DNA of 64,000 bases from contig JARXAE010000025.1 of assembly GCA_029866005.1 (NCBI GenBank), forward strand, positions 1 to 64,000, written 5' to 3'. The number at the start of each line of letters is the position of its first letter. The stretch's first letter is position 1. Positions 19,477 through 28,307 of this stretch are shown here, piece by piece. The position numbers were made by a program, and so were the translations under genes. This DNA comes from Fimbriimonas sp. GTDB taxonomy: Bacteria > Armatimonadota > Fimbriimonadia > Fimbriimonadales > Fimbriimonadaceae. The notes beneath the pieces were generated by a model. The model saw only the letters and a list, made by a program, of their open reading frames with translations, made no database searches and had not been told where the DNA came from.

Positions 19477-21771
19477 ATGCTTTTCGGCTCGGTTATCGCC
19501 GCTTCGGCGTTTTTTGGACCTGATACTCGACCGCCTCACCAATTCGATCTCCTCGATGTGAAGCTCGACGTCACCTTGGACTTTAAGGCGGAGGCCGTCT
19601 CGGGGATCGTCTCACACAAGCTCGTAACCGTGGCGAAGGATGCAGTCTTGGCGTTCGACAAGGGACCAATGACGATCCAGTCAGTGAGCATCGTTGGGAA
19701 AGGCAAGTTCAAGACCGAATCCACCGCCAAAAATGTGTTTGTTCGATGCACAGGCGTCCCTAATGGGACGCCATTGACGGTCTCGATCAAGTATTCAGCT
19801 GCACCAGAGGCTGGGATTTACTTTGTTCCTGCTGAACGGGCTTATCCGAGTAAAGGATCACTGGCCTACACCCAGGGCGAGATGGAGGATAACCGTTACT
19901 GGTTCCCTACTTACGACTTTCCCAATGATAAAGCGACTGCGGAGTTGATTGCTCGAGTTCCAAAGGGAATGAGCGTCTTGTCGAACGGGAAGTTGCTTGG
20001 GACGAAGACGGTTGGGAACCAAGCGATTTGGCATTGGAAGCAGGATCAGCCGATGTCAACGTATCTCATCTCGTTGGTTGCGGGGGATTACATTGCAATT
20101 CCCGACGGAACCTTCAAAGGTAAACCCATTCAAATCTGGGCACCAAAAGGGGCCGAAGATGCTGCGCGAACTGCATTTAAGGGAACCGATAAGCTCGTTG
20201 AGATTTACTCCAAGCTGACCGGCGTGGACTACCCATGGGCTAAGTACGCCCAGTCAGTCGTTCCAGAGTTCATGTTTGGCGGGATGGAGAACTTGAGTTG
20301 CACGACCCAGACGATCGGGGCGATTTTCCCGGAGAATGCAGCTGAGACTTCATCGGCACGGGGTCTGAATGCTCACGAATTGGCTCACCAGTGGTTCGGT
20401 GACCTAATCACAACTCCGACTTGGGCACATATCTGGGTTAACGAGGGCTGGGCGACGTTTCTTCCCCACTTTGTGACTCGGCAGTTGGATGGCGATAGTG
20501 CTTTCCACATTGAGCGTTTCGGAACCTATGAAGGGTGTAAAGGTTCGGCGAAGGAACATCCTATGGTGCGAACAAATTACACGGTCCCGATGGAGATGTT
20601 CGATGGCAACGCTTATCCGGGTGGAGCGACGCGGATGTTTATGCTGATGCGCCAGCTCAGCGAGCCGAAGTTCTGGTCTTCGACCAAAGTATATCTGGGT
20701 GAGTATGGCCGTAAGAACGTGACGACTGAGCAGTTCTTTGCTTCCTTTGAGAAGACTTCCAGCGCGAAGCTACAGGACTTCCGAAAACAGTGGTTCTACA
20801 CCAAGGGGTATCCCAACTTTAAGTTGACGAAGGCAGGATCTGGATTCACTGTTCGGCAGACGACTGCCGGCTTTGATGTTGATGTCGAGTATGTGATCAT
20901 GAACAATGAGATGGTCACTCGGCGCGGCTTGCTTGGTGGGACATCTGCCGAAGCGGTTTCGGTGGCGGTTGGAGCCGGGGAGACGTTGATCATTGATCCC
21001 GGTGCGTGGCTATTGTGCGATGTGTCCTATCCGGCGGACTACAAGGCAGCTGACTGGGAGCGGGCTTGGACCTTGGCAGACAACGATGCGCAGCGAATGC
21101 GGCTCATTGACCGAGTTTCGCAGGACTTTCGAAAGGCAGAGTTTGAGCGTCCACGATCTGAAGCCCTCAAAGGGGAGCTTTTACGAAGGATTCAGGATGA
21201 TGCGTTCTTGGTTAACGTTCTAGAAACGAGCAAGAATGCAAAACATCAGATCACGGCCCTTTACGGTCTGTCGGCAAACAAAGGTTCGAAAAACGAGGCA
21301 CTCTTTGGGAAGTTGTTTAACTCAGTTTCGAACGAGGAGATGAAAAATGCGGCTTTTGACAAGCTCCTCTCCGTGAGAAATAATGCGGCGACCGCAGAGC
21401 TGGGGTGGAATACGACAACTTGGAATCTGCAAACCCAGACGCGGGCACTATCATGGTTTGCCGCAAACGACAAGGACAGGGCACGGACGATGGCACTGAA
21501 GGCGGTCAAGGAGTTCGCGCCGGGACCTGTTCGGATGCAGGCGATTAGCGTGCTTGGACAGGTGAAGGATGCTACCGGTTCGCGTGAGGTTTTCGACTTA
21601 CTGGTGTCACTAGCAAAAGGGCGGGCCTATGCTCCGATGGACCAAGCAATCAATGCTCTGGCGGACTACGGCGATAAGCGAGCAATTCCCGTGATTGAAT
21701 CACGGAAGAATCACTCGCTGCACTTCGCTCGTAACACGATTGAAGGAGCTCTAGCGCGGCTGCAGCGCTAG
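19477..21771 (+). CDS. M1 family metallopeptidase (aminopeptidase)
   Basis: 764 aa; GGMENLSCTTQT, HELAHQWFGDLITTPTWAHIWVNEGWATF. Confidence 0.95.
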   Translation: MLFGSVIAASAFFGPDTRPPHQFDLLDVKLDVTLDFKAEAVSGIVSHKLVTVAKDAVLAFDKGPMTIQSVSIVGKGKFKTESTAKNVFVRCTGVPNGTPLTVSIKYSAAPEAGIYFVPAERAYPSKGSLAYTQGEMEDNRYWFPTYDFPNDKATAELIARVPKGMSVLSNGKLLGTKTVGNQAIWHWKQDQPMSTYLISLVAGDYIAIPDGTFKGKPIQIWAPKGAEDAARTAFKGTDKLVEIYSKLTGVDYPWAKYAQSVVPEFMFGGMENLSCTTQTIGAIFPENAAETSSARGLNAHELAHQWFGDLITTPTWAHIWVNEGWATFLPHFVTRQLDGDSAFHIERFGTYEGCKGSAKEHPMVRTNYTVPMEMFDGNAYPGGATRMFMLMRQLSEPKFWSSTKVYLGEYGRKNVTTEQFFASFEKTSSAKLQDFRKQWFYTKGYPNFKLTKAGSGFTVRQTTAGFDVDVEYVIMNNEMVTRRGLLGGTSAEAVSVAVGAGETLIIDPGAWLLCDVSYPADYKAADWERAWTLADNDAQRMRLIDRVSQDFRKAEFERPRSEALKGELLRRIQDDAFLVNVLETSKNAKHQITALYGLSANKGSKNEALFGKLFNSVSNEEMKNAAFDKLLSVRNNAATAELGWNTTTWNLQTQTRALSWFAANDKDRARTMALKAVKEFAPGPVRMQAISVLGQVKDATGSREVFDLLVSLAKGRAYAPMDQAINALADYGDKRAIPVIESRKNHSLHFARNTIEGALARLQR

Positions 21772-22523
21772 AGTGGCTTCGCGGCCTTCAGAACCGTCTG
21801 CATGGCGGTTTTGAGGGCTTTCTCGTCGACTGGTCGGTTGCCGTCTTTGTCTAGGACTCTGACGACCGGTTCAATCCGTTGGAATCCCCCGGTCGCGCTG
21901 TCGAGCGTGGCGGCAATGTCGAGCATTTCGAGGCCGTTTTTAAGGACTTCGTCAAGCGATCGCTTGGCAAAGGAGCCCTCTTTGCGCCGAAGGTATTCGA
22001 AGACTCCCTTGATCTGCATGCTGCCAGATCCGGCGCACGCATATTCGTCGTTGAGGAATCTCGCCCCGGCGCCGTCGAAGAAGTAGAGAACAAACTCTTC
22101 TTTTTCTTTGTTGTAGGCAGCGAGAATGGGGAGGAAGACGCCGATGCCTTCCATTGCCGAGGCAGCGTTTCCAGCGAGGGAGCGACTGATTTCGGCGAGT
22201 TTGCCTTCGAGGCTAAGTTCTTGCAAGACCGAGCGTCGGTAGTACTTGAAGCTGTGCTTTAGGTAGCGGCAAATTTCAACCGAACGGGCGAAAGAACCGC
22301 TGATCGCGACGACCGTCGAGTCATCGAGAGCCATGATCTTGTCGGCCTGCTCGAACATGATGAGGTTGCCCATCGTCGCCCGACGGTCGGCAAAGATAAG
22401 GATTCCGTCCTTGTACCGAAGAGCCAGGACGGTTGTGCCGTGGGTTTCGGGGTGGTTTCCAGTGGCCTCATTAAAGGGTGCTGGGACGAGCTCGCTAAAG
22501 GGCCGAGCGAGCGGACTCATCAT
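21768..22523 (-). CDS. prcB: 20S proteasome beta subunit
   Basis: 251 aa; propeptide then HGTTVLALRYKDGILIFADRRATMGNLIMFEQADKIMALDDSTVVAISGS with predicted catalytic Thr after Gly. Confidence 0.92.
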   Translation of the reverse strand: MMSPLARPFSELVPAPFNEATGNHPETHGTTVLALRYKDGILIFADRRATMGNLIMFEQADKIMALDDSTVVAISGSFARSVEICRYLKHSFKYYRRSVLQELSLEGKLAEISRSLAGNAASAMEGIGVFLPILAAYNKEKEEFVLYFFDGAGARFLNDEYACAGSGSMQIKGVFEYLRRKEGSFAKRSLDEVLKNGLEMLDIAATLDSATGGFQRIEPVVRVLDKDGNRPVDEKALKTAMQTVLKAAKPL

Positions 22524-22702
22524 TGACCCGACCTCTGGCGGTACTTCTTGGCCTGATCCGGGTCAACCTTTTTGAGTCGGCGGAGGAGTTCGTTTCCTCC
22601 TTCTGGTTTTGTCACGTCCGGGGCCTTGGGGCCGCTGTCGTCGCCGAGTTTGCGCTCGGGGGCTGATGGCATTTGTCTTTGCGGCTGTTCGGCGTTTATC
22701 AT
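22520..22702 (-). CDS. UBact/Pup-like small protein modifier
   Basis: 60 aa, hydrophilic: MINAEQPQRQMPSAPERKLGDDSGPKAPDVTKPEGGNELLRRLKKVDPDQAKKYRQRSGQ; C-terminal GQ; between dop-like and prcB with 4-nt overlaps on both sides. Confidence 0.88.
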   Translation of the reverse strand: MINAEQPQRQMPSAPERKLGDDSGPKAPDVTKPEGGNELLRRLKKVDPDQAKKYRQRSGQ

Positions 22703-24123
22703 CTGATCTCCCTGAGAGCGACTATGAATGATTCTACGTCAGGGCAGTCGGCGAGCGTCGCGGGATATTCCTTTTCTGGCGGCAGATCGATGAATTCGTT
22801 GTTGATGGTGATGCCCCGCCAGCCGACGGTTTGGATGTGGCCTTTGAATTTGGTGACTGCGAGGGAGCGGGCGAAAGCGCGGGATCTGAGTAAGTTTCCA
22901 AGCTTGGTGGAAGGGATGGCAGGTTCAACTTGATCGGCTTGCTCAAGCGCGTGGTAGAGTCCTTCGTCAAGGTCGATGTTGTGGAACTCAAGGTCGTAAG
23001 ATCGAAGATCGGCGTCATCGCCAAACTCTTCCTTGACTTGTTGAAGAAGGCTTCGCTTTGCGAACCACTCGATACGCCTAGCCACTGCCGGGTGGGATGA
23101 CTCCAAACCGGTAAGAAGCTCGGTGGTGTTCTTGGCTACCCAGTCCATCTCTGGATCAATGCTCTTAAGCTCAGCTTCGGAGGCAGCGGACAGGTAAGAC
23201 TCGATGATTTCGCGAGCCGAGTTCCTTGCGCTGGCGTCATCAGGGTTTCGGCTGAAATGTTTAAACTGATCAACTGGGTCATCAATCTTCCAGACCGGCA
23301 CCTTCCCGTTCTCGAGCAGATAAAGAGCCATCTTTACTAGTCCCACTTTTAAGGCCGTGCTAACCTCCATCATGTTCGAGTCGCCGGTGATGACGTGGAG
23401 CCGAATCCATTTGGCGGGGTCGGCGTGGGGTTCGTCTCGGGTGTTGAAGATTGGGCGTCGCCAGAGGGTCTCTAGGTTGCAGAGTTCGGAAAGGTGGTCG
23501 GCACGCTGACTGAGTTGGAAGTCGCATGGCTCGTCAGTTTCGGCACCGACTTTTCCGGCTCCAGTAAGAAGTTGCCGGGCAATGAGGATCGGCACTACAG
23601 CCTTCTGGATCGCTTCAGGCGAGTGCTTGCGCGAAACAAGGTAACTTTCGTGGGTTCCGAAGGAAGAACCGTGGAAGTCGGTGTTGTTGCGATAAAGAGT
23701 TACTTTGCGACCAATCTTGGAGGCGTAAACTCTCGCTGTGTCAAGTAGATGGTAGTCGCCATCGGAGACGAATCGAGCAAGCTCGAGCACTGAGAATGAC
23801 TCAGGCGTGGCGTATTCGGGGTGGCCGTGGTCGTTGTAGAATCTCGCTCCGTTCGGAAGTACTCGGTCGGCTCGGACGTCTTTCGGATCGCCGTATGACT
23901 TCCCTTTGTCAAACTTGGCATCATTAGGGTCGATTGCGAGGCGATCGACCGAGAATCCTCGAAGGTCGTTACGAGGGTTCTCGAACCGATAGTCCCAGCC
24001 AACAAAACAAGGACCCGGATAACTTCTTACGAAGTCTTCCGAGTCCTCGACTTGGGTTTCGGCTCCTCGCCCCTCAATACGGAGTCCGTACTCCGTATCG
24101 ATTCCGGCGAGAATTCGATGCAT
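22699..24123 (-). CDS. dop: Dop-like depupylase/deamidase (Pup ligase superfamily)
   Basis: 474 aa; MHRILAGIDTEYGL, WDYRFENPRNDLRGFSVDRLA, NGARFYNDHGHPEYATPE, LYRNNTDFHGSSFGTHESYLVSR, NTRDEPHADPAKWIRLHVITGDSNMMEVST. The WDY-E-P-DLRGF block fits Dop rather than PafA. Confidence 0.9.
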   Translation of the reverse strand: MHRILAGIDTEYGLRIEGRGAETQVEDSEDFVRSYPGPCFVGWDYRFENPRNDLRGFSVDRLAIDPNDAKFDKGKSYGDPKDVRADRVLPNGARFYNDHGHPEYATPESFSVLELARFVSDGDYHLLDTARVYASKIGRKVTLYRNNTDFHGSSFGTHESYLVSRKHSPEAIQKAVVPILIARQLLTGAGKVGAETDEPCDFQLSQRADHLSELCNLETLWRRPIFNTRDEPHADPAKWIRLHVITGDSNMMEVSTALKVGLVKMALYLLENGKVPVWKIDDPVDQFKHFSRNPDDASARNSAREIIESYLSAASEAELKSIDPEMDWVAKNTTELLTGLESSHPAVARRIEWFAKRSLLQQVKEEFGDDADLRSYDLEFHNIDLDEGLYHALEQADQVEPAIPSTKLGNLLRSRAFARSLAVTKFKGHIQTVGWRGITINNEFIDLPPEKEYPATLADCPDVESFIVALREIR

Positions 24124-25595
24124 TATCTGCGTAGAACGACGATCTTGCCGCTTGCTGGGAAGCCAGGTGCAGGCGTCGTGAACGAGAAGTCAATCCATCG
24201 GGTCTTTTGTGGAGACACCGTTGAAGTACCGGTGGAGCTGTACTGCGTACTGATCGTTCCTGCAACCTCACCCGTTCGGTTCGTGATTGCATTTGAATCA
24301 CCAATGTTTGCGATTGGGTAGAGGAAGATCTGCTTGGTGCCCATGTCAATGTAGCCCCACATCATGGAGGTGATGGTCGCGAACTTAGCTCCGTTAGCGG
24401 CAGTTCCAATGGTTTGGTTAACAAAGACGACGTCCTGTCGCTCGTCATCCAGGCTACTTGGGATCGAAATCGCCTCAAACGAGTGCGCATTTCGCAGATA
24501 GCCGATATCCGAGATCAGTCCGGAGGACGGATCTTGCCGTTGTTGGAAGTGTGGTCGCCAAGTTCCTTGGAACGAGGTGATCTTTCGAGCAAGAACAGGA
24601 TCGGTGGTCGTTACGTCCGTTGGATCCACACCAAGAGTCGTGTAGCTACCCGGAGTCACTGAGAGTCCGATTCCGCTTGGCAGAGTTGCCGGTGAGGAGT
24701 ATCGACCGACAACTGAGGCGTCTTGACCAGCAGCGAAGATCGTTTCGAATGGTGCTCCACCCACTACTCCTGCGGAAGGGTTTCCTGCACCAAGTGCATA
24801 CCCGTCTCCCGAGAAGAAGATTCTGTTCGCAGTTCCTAAGCCTTGGCTCAGAGTAGGACGCAGTCCGCTTGAAATTGAGGAAACATCAAAGCACACATAG
24901 TCGCTAAGGAAGCCACGGACGACTGTCGTGTCACCATCAATCCGGTTAACGCTATCGAACCAGGCTCTATCGAAAACGGCAACTTCAGTGTCGACTCCTC
25001 CGATGTTTTGTGTTTCCGTATTGATTGTCGAGCCATCCATGAAGAGCGGCACGAGGGTTTCGCGACCCTTGAAGATTCGCACTTCTGATGGGATCGAGCC
25101 CGGGATGCCTTGAATGTTGTTGAAAGTTCGGGTTCCCAGATCGTCAATGAGGTCATAGCGAACCATATTGACGTCAACGGAGGTGAAGTTTCTGGATTCC
25201 GTCGTTAGCAACCCAACGTTGGTCGCAAGAATCTGCGACTGGTTGGACGTAAGCGTCAGAGTTTTTTCCGTTAAGTCCGACGTCTCGATACCGAAGTTGT
25301 CAGAGACTGCCATGTTTCGGGCAATCGCAACTTCAGTTGCTGGTGCTCGTCCTGCACCGGTGAGGAACACATACTGAAGAAGAGCAGGTGTGTTCGACAA
25401 ATTGACAGTCGCAACCTCCGGGAACAGACCTCCAGAAGTTGCTGTCGACCCCGAAGACGCGGTGGACCCGGAGGTCGCAGTTGAGCCCGTTGACGAGCCG
25501 CCAGCGGTGTTACCCGCACAGCCAAAAATCGCGATGGCGAGGGCTCCAACGCCCAGACCCCACTTCAGTTGTTTCCAATCCAATTGACGACGCAT
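24123..25595 (-). CDS. putative secreted lipoprotein with Ser/Thr/Gly linker, hypothetical
   Basis: MRRQLDWKQLKWGLGVGALAIAIFGCAGN lipobox-like, then GGSSTGSTATSGSTASSGSTATSGG. Stop overlaps dop start (TAATG). Confidence 0.7.
   Translation of the reverse strand: MRRQLDWKQLKWGLGVGALAIAIFGCAGNTAGGSSTGSTATSGSTASSGSTATSGGLFPEVATVNLSNTPALLQYVFLTGAGRAPATEVAIARNMAVSDNFGIETSDLTEKTLTLTSNQSQILATNVGLLTTESRNFTSVDVNMVRYDLIDDLGTRTFNNIQGIPGSIPSEVRIFKGRETLVPLFMDGSTINTETQNIGGVDTEVAVFDRAWFDSVNRIDGDTTVVRGFLSDYVCFDVSSISSGLRPTLSQGLGTANRIFFSGDGYALGAGNPSAGVVGGAPFETIFAAGQDASVVGRYSSPATLPSGIGLSVTPGSYTTLGVDPTDVTTTDPVLARKITSFQGTWRPHFQQRQDPSSGLISDIGYLRNAHSFEAISIPSSLDDERQDVVFVNQTIGTAANGAKFATITSMMWGYIDMGTKQIFLYPIANIGDSNAITNRTGEVAGTISTQYSSTGTSTVSPQKTRWIDFSFTTPAPGFPASGKIVVLRR
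25430..25515 (-). repeat. low-complexity tandem (S/T/G/A)-rich linker coding repeat
   Basis: Translates to repeated STAxSGS units (GSTATSGSTASSGSTATSGG). Confidence 0.7.
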
Positions 25596-25696
25596 AGTGA
25601 TCCCTAGCAACAAGAGTGATCGGAGTATAGCAAGTTATGTTCCCGCTTGGATAGGTTTTTTTGTCAAAACGCCACGCTGGTACAATTTCAGTCCGG

Positions 25697-26232
25697 TGCG
25701 AAGGGACGACTTACTAGACCTCAACGACGTTCTCCAGCATCCTGGAAGAGAACTAGCGGTTGATATTGCCACTGAACTACCAGAAATGGAAGACCTTGAC
25801 CTCGTAGCTCCTGTGGAAGGATTCATAGAAGCTGTCTCTACTGGTAATGCGCTGTTGCTCACCGGAGAGTTTAAGGCTAGGGTCGTCTTGGAGTGCTCGC
25901 GGTGCGATCGGCCACTCGAGATGGATATTGAGTTCGTTCTCGACGAGCAATTTGGTGTCGTCGGAATTCCGAGTTCGATGAGCCATCAAGATTTCGCAAA
26001 AGTAGAAGCCGATCCCGACGAGCCGATCAAATTTTTCGAGGAGAACAATCTCATGGTTGAGGCACTCATCCAGCAAACCTTGTTGCTCAACCTCCCGATT
26101 CATCCACAGTGTGACGAAGATGCGATTGCGGAGTGCGACCGGCTTTTCGCCGAAGGCGCCACCCGAATTATTGACAACGAAAATAGCGAACTCGGCAAGC
26201 TCAAACAGCTTTTAGGAGATTCGACCGAGTGA
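25697..26232 (+). CDS. DUF177/YceD family protein
   Basis: C-terminal part of ORF 25597..26232; LTGEFKARVVLECSRCDRPLEMDIEFVLDEQF, LNLPIHPQCDEDAIAECD; upstream of plsX. Start approximate. Confidence 0.8.
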
Positions 26233-27305
26233 GCGAGGCCGGGCAGATTCACCTTTCCGAGGTCATCTCGCACGGCGAGCCAAATATTGTGCTGGACGCG
26301 ATGGGTGGTGATTACGCGCCTGATGAAGTCGTACGAGGCGGCATTGAAGCGGCACCTTTCATCAAGGGCAAGTTGATTTTAGTAGGTCAAACCGATGCGA
26401 TTCATGCTTCCCTCAAACGCGTAAATGATGGTCTTTTGCCTTCTAATGTTGAGATTCACCATGCTTCTCAAATTGTTGAGATGCATGAAAAGCCGCTTGA
26501 TGCCTATCGCAAAAAGAAGGATTCTTCGATGCTGGTCGGCTGCAAGTTAGTGAAAGACGGCAAAGCCAAGGCTTTCGTCTCGGCAGGTTCGACAGGTGCC
26601 GCATCGGCGACTTCCCTGCTCACTTGGCGACAAGTACACGGCATACATCGCCCGGCAATTGGATCTCAGCTACCAAATATGCACGGAGGTTTCCTCCTGC
26701 TGGATTCGGGAGCCTCTCCCGATGTTGATCCTGAGCATCTTGTGGAATTTGCGATCATGGGCCGAGCATATGCCGAGGCCGTTATGGGGCGCAAAAAGCC
26801 CCGAGTCCATTTGGTCAATATCGGCGAAGAGGAAGGCAAAGGAAATTCCTTTGCAAAGCAAGCCTATAAGCTATTGCAAGACCATGAATGGTTTGCAGGG
26901 AACATCGAAGGGAAAGACATGTTCAACTCAGCCTGCGATGTTGTTGTCTGCGAGGCTTTTGTTGGAAACACGATTTTGAAGACTGCCGAAGGCGTTGCTG
27001 AGATGTTTGCGAAGATGATCAAGTCAGGCGTTCCAACCAACAAGCTTCTACAAACCATGTACTGGCCACTGAAGAAGGTCATGAAGCCAATCCGCAAGCA
27101 CATGGATTACGCCGAAGTAGGTGGTTCGCCTTTGCTAGGACTTAACGGAACGTGCATCATTGCTCACGGGCGAAGTAACGCGAAAGCGATCAAGAATGCC
27201 GTTTTGATGGCGGACAAGGCTATTCGTTCCGACTTGGTTGATCACATCCGGGACGCGATTCACCGAGAGTTGCCCCAGAACTTCATAGAGACCCAAAACG
27301 GGTAA
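26229..27305 (+). CDS. plsX: phosphate acyltransferase PlsX
   Basis: 358 aa; IVLDAMGGDYAPDEVVRGGIEA, AFVSAGSTGA, NIGEEEGKGN, GGSPLLGLNGTCIIAHGRSNAKAIKNAV. Confidence 0.96.
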   Translation: MSEAGQIHLSEVISHGEPNIVLDAMGGDYAPDEVVRGGIEAAPFIKGKLILVGQTDAIHASLKRVNDGLLPSNVEIHHASQIVEMHEKPLDAYRKKKDSSMLVGCKLVKDGKAKAFVSAGSTGAASATSLLTWRQVHGIHRPAIGSQLPNMHGGFLLLDSGASPDVDPEHLVEFAIMGRAYAEAVMGRKKPRVHLVNIGEEEGKGNSFAKQAYKLLQDHEWFAGNIEGKDMFNSACDVVVCEAFVGNTILKTAEGVAEMFAKMIKSGVPTNKLLQTMYWPLKKVMKPIRKHMDYAEVGGSPLLGLNGTCIIAHGRSNAKAIKNAVLMADKAIRSDLVDHIRDAIHRELPQNFIETQNG

Positions 27306-27320
27306 CTTCTTTGCAAGTTA

Positions 27321-28307
27321 ATGAACAGAAACGCCGTCGTAAAAGGCATCGGGCACGCACTTCCATCGCGGATCCTTACTAACGAGGAACTGAGCAAAAC
27401 CGTCGACACCACCGACGAGTGGATCGTTCAGCGTACGGGTATCAAGCAACGCCGAATTTGTGCACCTAACGAAGGTTGCTTTGATCTTGCGCTCACGGCG
27501 GCGAGAGAAGCTCTCGAAAGCTCAGGGCTGTCGAAAGATGACATTCAGATGGTCATCGTGGCCACCGTTTCGGGCGACTACGATTGGCCCACCGCGGCTT
27601 GTTACGTTCAGGATCAGCTTGGCATCAAAAACGCCGGAGCGTTTGACCTCGGTGCGGCTTGCGCAGGATGTATTTACGCGATGTCCGTCGGCACCGCGAT
27701 GGTTGAGAGCGGGCAGATCAACAACGCCATCATCGTAGGCGTTGATACGCTGACGAAGCAAGTCAATTGGAACGATCGTTCGACGTGTATTTTGTTCGGC
27801 GACGGTGCGGGGGCGATTGTGCTCGGACACCAAGAATCAACGACTCGTGGCGTCATCAAAACGATCCTACTCAGCGACGGCAGCGGTGCGAATCACATCA
27901 TGAACGAACTTGGTGGAACCAAGTATCCGCCGAAAAGTGAAGAATGGTTTGCCCGAACCTATGGCATCAAGATGAATGGGAACGAGGTGTACCGTTTTGC
28001 CATTGGAGCCATGGGTGATGCTTGCGAACGAGTGCTGCATGACGCGGGAATGACAGCGGATCAGGTTGACCTCTTCGTTCCTCACCAAGCCAATATTCGG
28101 ATCATTGAGTCTGCCGCAAAGCGGCTGAATTTGCCTCCTGAAAAGGTCTTTATCAACCTTGATAAGTACGGCAATACGAGCGCTGGCTCCATTCCGCTGG
28201 CGCTTTATGAGGCGGTTCATGAAGGACGACTGAAGGAAGGCATGGTCGTCATGACCGTCGGCTTTGGTGCAGGTCTTGTCTGGGGCGCTAATCTAATCCG
28301 CTGGTAA
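27321..28307 (+). CDS. fabH: beta-ketoacyl-ACP synthase III
   Basis: 328 aa; TDEWIVQRTGIKQRRI, AFDLGAACAGCIYAM, FVPHQANIRIIESAAKRL, YGNTSAGSIPLAL. Confidence 0.96.
   Translation: MNRNAVVKGIGHALPSRILTNEELSKTVDTTDEWIVQRTGIKQRRICAPNEGCFDLALTAAREALESSGLSKDDIQMVIVATVSGDYDWPTAACYVQDQLGIKNAGAFDLGAACAGCIYAMSVGTAMVESGQINNAIIVGVDTLTKQVNWNDRSTCILFGDGAGAIVLGHQESTTRGVIKTILLSDGSGANHIMNELGGTKYPPKSEEWFARTYGIKMNGNEVYRFAIGAMGDACERVLHDAGMTADQVDLFVPHQANIRIIESAAKRLNLPPEKVFINLDKYGNTSAGSIPLALYEAVHEGRLKEGMVVMTVGFGAGLVWGANLIRW

Follow-up and report, generated by a model that had tools for sequence, protein, structure and literature searches.

A run of bacterial proteasome genes that ends at the beta subunit raises the question of where, if anywhere, the other parts of the system are encoded. 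Such a run lies in a 64,000-nucleotide stretch of Fimbriimonas sp. DNA, referred to here as the window. The ORF map of the window shows the minus-strand gene order lipoprotein–dop–UBact–prcB between 21768 and 25595, with successive stop/start overlaps (Table 1). The lipoprotein gene and dop have a TAATG in common, dop shares the ATGA at 22699–22702 with a 60-aa ORF, and this ORF shares the ATGA at 22520–22523 with prcB. These coordinates confirmed the four-ORF chain described in the initial annotation, and the identities given there to the four products (lipoprotein, Dop, UBact and PrcB) proved right. The cluster was also said to end at prcB against a convergent gene, and prcB indeed overlaps the 3′ end of the convergent 764-aa ORF; the M1 identity of this ORF is by sequence only, and of the loci compared, only that of the closest relative (L043) has an M1-aminopeptidase-like ORF in this position. 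Upstream of the chain, the DUF177-like–plsX–fabH block was also present in 35 of the 42 related loci with enough flank. A scan of the sequence for sigma-70 promoters and terminators gave matches no more numerous than in shuffles.

Table 1. Positions of the system genes and flanking genes, in the window unless a contig is given.
Feature	Position	Strand	Basis of assignment
UBact, 60-aa ubiquitin-like tag ending YRQRSGQ	22520..22702	-	NF033388, PF20513
Dop, depupylase/deamidase paralogue of PafA	22699..24123	-	TIGR03688, PF03136, 4b0r alignment, Dop-loop
PrcB, proteasome beta subunit	21768..22523	-	TIGR03690, PF00227, 2jay
Predicted lipoprotein, lipobox IFGC, first gene of the operon	24123..25595	-	Conserved family, without Pfam or NCBIfam match
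764-aa ORF, M1-aminopeptidase-like by sequence (flank, outside the system)	19477..21771	+	Sequence reading
DUF177/YceD-like–plsX–fabH, divergent block (flank, outside the system)	25597..28307	+	Names from sequence and conserved order
PafA, second Pup-ligase gene	C23:132159-133532		PF03136 4.6e-120, signatures, orthology
PrcA, 20S alpha subunit	C14:5602-6237		TIGR03691 2.2e-21, below its cut-off
ARC/Mpa-type ATPase	C16:68594-70078 (G000; L005 1432-3111)		TIGR03689 447 bits, below equivalog cut-off

The tag, Dop and PrcB encoded in the window

The 60-aa ORF scored above the curated cut-offs of both UBact models, NF033388 (8.5e-22; 77.1 bits, cut-off 35) and PF20513 (5.5e-21; 74.5 bits, cut-off 27.8), and has the terminal Gln/Glu of UBact members, its C terminus being SGQ. 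The Pup model PF05639 had no match in the whole genome, which ruled out Pup as the identity of this protein. Thus, the earlier call of a UBact/Pup-type tag held for UBact and not for Pup. The expected C-terminal Gln was found in the ending YRQRSGQ, and the expectation of a Pup-type GGQ or GGE tail did not stand: the 68 UBact genes read end in SGQ (49) or SGE (19), and none in GGQ or GGE. Because 19 of these relatives already encode SGE, deamidation would be unnecessary there. Two tandem UBact-like matches, one of them weak, were seen at G092:C4:768105-768408, and G198 has three UBact matches on three contigs; these are possible tag duplications or, in G198, possible assembly redundancy.

The window Dop had TIGR03688 as its best-scoring family (3.3e-88; 296.6 bits, as compared with 215 bits for the PafA model TIGR03686), though both scores are below the curated cut-offs, the equivalog cut-off of TIGR03688 being 492 bits. 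It matched PF03136 at 2.2e-109, and its residues 1–439 align with the Dop structure 4b0r. The Dop-loop is a segment of about 40 residues that is present in Dop and missing from PafA (PMC7947786), and it was found in the window protein as WDY.FENPRNDLRGF in the segment aligned with 4B0R (WDYRFENPRNDLRGF). This signature ruled out a swap of the paralogues, in which the window gene would be PafA.

PrcB matched the 20S beta model TIGR03690 (1.5e-36, below the equivalog cut-off), PF00227 (1.4e-25) and the solved bacterial PrcB 2jay (2.5e-24), the alignment of the mature chains beginning at query residue 30. The mature N terminus is the Thr of HG/TTVLAL (HG/TTVLALRYKDGILIFADRRATMGNLIMFEQADK, the slash marking the cut), with a predicted propeptide before the cut, and Thr1, Asp17 and Lys33 of the 20S beta subunits, numbered from this motif, are all retained.

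The remaining parts and their distribution

No prcA, pafA or ATPase gene was seen in the window, as the initial annotation had noted, and it had offered two explanations, namely that these parts lie elsewhere or that the system is rewired, for example as a beta-only particle. When the full genome was searched with HMMs for PrcA, PafA and ARC/Mpa, all of them were found at other loci of the window's own assembly, on contigs C14, C23 and C16, respectively. The first explanation was therefore borne out and the second contradicted by the same genes, and the presence of PrcA, PafA and ARC elsewhere in the genome makes this an ordinary split system, the very outcome that the annotation had named as refuting its rewired reading.

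The identity of each distant part was examined in turn. The pocket lysine of alpha subunits (K52 of M. tuberculosis) was kept in every aligned PrcA row, where the M. tuberculosis reference is what we take to be its PrcA sequence, and the solved Rhodococcus alpha chain shows the same lysine. The C23 protein scored nearly the same with the PafA and Dop HMMs (278 and 277 bits) and its top PDB match by whole score was Dop, so its naming as PafA rests on signatures and orthology. In the alignment it is without the Dop-loop and has the PafA-type insert preceding the EYAT motif, and it is 50–52% identical to the pafA products adjoining prcA in Chthonomonadales-type clusters and about 30% identical to most dop products. 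In a maximum-likelihood tree of Dop and PafA the armatimonad paralogues separated, but the two references from Actinobacteria, both on long branches, formed a group of their own, and the tree was for that reason not used for naming. The ATPase matched the Mpa structure 5kwa at 3.3e-104 and showed the Mpa/ARC features, with homology over the OB and AAA regions, the Walker A motif GPPGCGKT and the Ar-Hb-Gly pore loop WVG. The NCBIfam equivalog cut-offs appear to be tuned to actinobacterial proteins; Dop, PafA, PrcA, PrcB and ARC all score below them.

These results together make it almost certain that dop, UBact and prcB of the window belong to a complete UBact-proteasome (Pup-like) system distributed over at least four loci, a reading supported by finding every part, with its identity signatures, and by the way the parts occur together or are missing together across genomes. 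A rewired or reduced system, with an HslV- or Anbu-like beta-only particle and Dop as the sole tag enzyme, would fit the window itself, which holds only these parts, but is barely credible when the genome itself and nearly all relatives encode PrcA, PafA and ARC, and when PrcB is closest to 20S beta. It was discarded on finding PrcA, and a tempting but wrong lead, the beta-only UBact proteasome, is thereby removed. The extra parts could also be contaminant contigs of a composite assembly, foreign to the organism, as the source assembly (2.81 Mb) is a 38-contig draft with the parts on different contigs. We consider this highly improbable because the completeness is 97.19% and the contamination 0.03%, same-genus genomes including the single-contig 5.2-Mb genome G062 carry all the parts in the same split layout, and among the loci read the ARC protein is closest (68%) to those of the same-genus genomes G076 and G075.

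The working of this complete system may be drawn by analogy with the pupylation scheme (PMC8223512), every biochemical and catalytic step being taken from the actinobacterial system. On this scheme, Dop would turn the last residue of UBact from Gln into Glu by deamidation and could also take the tag off again, and PafA would attach UBact to target proteins at lysines. The ARC/Mpa-type ATPase would then bind UBact, unfold the target and feed it into the PrcA/PrcB 20S particle, inside which PrcB would cut it.

Across 81 Fimbriimonadaceae genomes, a Pup-ligase-family gene was found in 79, UBact, PrcB and ARC in 76 each (ARC at E below 1e-80) and PrcA in 74; all six genes were found in 68, the exceptions being mostly incomplete assemblies. 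The coordinates place dop, UBact and prcB together in nearly all genomes of the family and pafA, prcA and arc elsewhere, also in single-contig assemblies; along G062, for instance, the genes come in the order arc (0.950 Mb), UBact (1.550 Mb), prcA (3.471 Mb) and pafA (3.734 Mb). The split layout is the norm of the Fimbriimonadaceae. Chthonomonadales-type relatives have one cluster in the order arc–dop–UBact–prcB–prcA–pafA (L092, L094, L095, L096, L100, L103, L105 and L108), and one ancestral cluster that was dispersed later is the simpler reading. Genes of a bacterial proteasome system that normally form a cluster can thus be stably dispersed, with dop–UBact–prcB kept together and pafA, prcA and arc apart. 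None of the six genes was found in G029 and G048 (genus g29, 1.5 Mb, 97% complete); this joint absence is as expected for one pathway, and the genus offers a case of reduced genomes in which all parts of the system are gone together. In the wider sample of 201 genomes across the phylum, UBact was found in 100.

Other layouts were also noticed. In G007, G021 and G057, prcA and arc are about 7–13 kb apart, which may be what is left of the single cluster. In loci L063 and L090 no prcB match follows dop and UBact, and in L084 pafA lies about 1.4 kb before dop with no UBact or prcB nearby; some of the contigs with unusual layouts are short.

The lipoprotein gene and the ATPase tail

The lipoprotein family has a lipobox followed by a Gly/Ser/Thr-rich linker and was seen only in Fimbriimonadaceae-type loci among those compared. 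Its AlphaFold model is confident and all-beta (pLDDT 81), and had no significant fold match in the PDB: the best Foldseek E-value, 3.7e-3, did not pass the limit of 1e-3. A strong match to the lipoprotein was found in 74 of the 81 family genomes, and in 71 of these dop is the next gene downstream; the lipoprotein–dop junctions are short gaps or overlaps. As the gene of the window is co-directional with dop and overlaps it, the two are likely co-transcribed.

The nearly constant position and tight junctions would favour a lipoprotein that works as a partner of the UBact system, for example in envelope-linked regulation, over a mere syntenic neighbour. In the same direction, it remains with dop in seven loci that have no DUF177, plsX or fabH nearby, and it was not found in either g29 genome (G029 and G048), both of which are without the system. 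Such a partnership nevertheless seems unlikely. In G005 the lipoprotein gene stayed beside the DUF177-plsX-fabH block while dop-UBact-prcB moved to contig C4, genus g9 retains dop–UBact–prcB beside other genes with the lipoprotein absent, the gene is not beside dop in Chthonomonadales-type loci, and an exported lipoprotein and a cytosolic proteasome would occupy different compartments. In a separate observation from G005 (L143 4775-8564; G005:C1), the lipoprotein and ARC genes share a strand and are separated by about 0.85 kb, within which lies an ORF on the other strand.

Mpa binds the proteasome via its C-terminal GQYL motif (PMC8755798), which is described as required for opening the mycobacterial proteasome and as contacting an alpha-subunit lysine (PMC12288473). 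Neither GQYL nor a penultimate Tyr was found in any of the 45 ARC tails from armatimonad loci, the protein of the window's own genome included; the ending is [IV][IVLM] in 43 of these tails and takes the fuller form [KR]x[IV][IVLM] in 37. The absence of GQYL from the 45 tails, together with the retention of the pocket lysine in PrcA, suggests that ARC uses a different docking tail on the proteasome in the armatimonads, the group whose tails were compared. An alternative tail of this kind would give a handle on how ARC engages the proteasome outside Actinobacteria. A bolder combined proposal, quite improbable, would have [KR]x[IV][IVLM] replace GQYL as a conserved non-tyrosine tail by which the UBact ATPase of armatimonads docks on the 20S particle, and in Fimbriimonadaceae would have the system expressed together with a lineage-specific surface lipoprotein as its link to the cell envelope.

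Comparison with known systems

The 2017 description of UBact reportedly lists Armatimonadetes among the UBact phyla. The system type is already known, as the UBact-proteasome system of Gram-negative bacteria (Lehmann et al. 2017, BBRC 483:946, as cited in PMC12751074), and both armatimonad proteasome subunits (2017) and Dop/PafA homologues in Armatimonadetes (2020; PMC7947786) were previously recorded. The proteasome subunits of armatimonadetes, nitrospirae and verrucomicrobia form a separate Gram-negative subcluster (Fuchs et al. 2017, PMC5666114), in which armatimonad alpha and beta subunits, the kind encoded here, were already placed; that paper covers the subunits and not the present gene layout. 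In our literature search, Fimbriimonas and the proteasome were named together in one paper only, once each and in a different context.

The actinobacterial Pup-proteasome system resembles the present one, by homology, in its paralogous Dop and PafA, its 20S PrcA/PrcB and its Mpa/ARC ATPase. It differs in that the tag here is UBact, with tails SGQ or SGE and no match to PF05639, and in that the ATPase tail here is without GQYL. The closer likeness is to the Gram-negative UBact-proteasome system, as the tag matches UBact at the model level and has the C-terminal Gln/Glu, and Dop, PafA, PrcA, PrcB and an ARC-type ATPase are all present. Unlike that system, which is encoded in one cluster, the genes described here lie over at least four loci, and a lipoprotein gene precedes dop.
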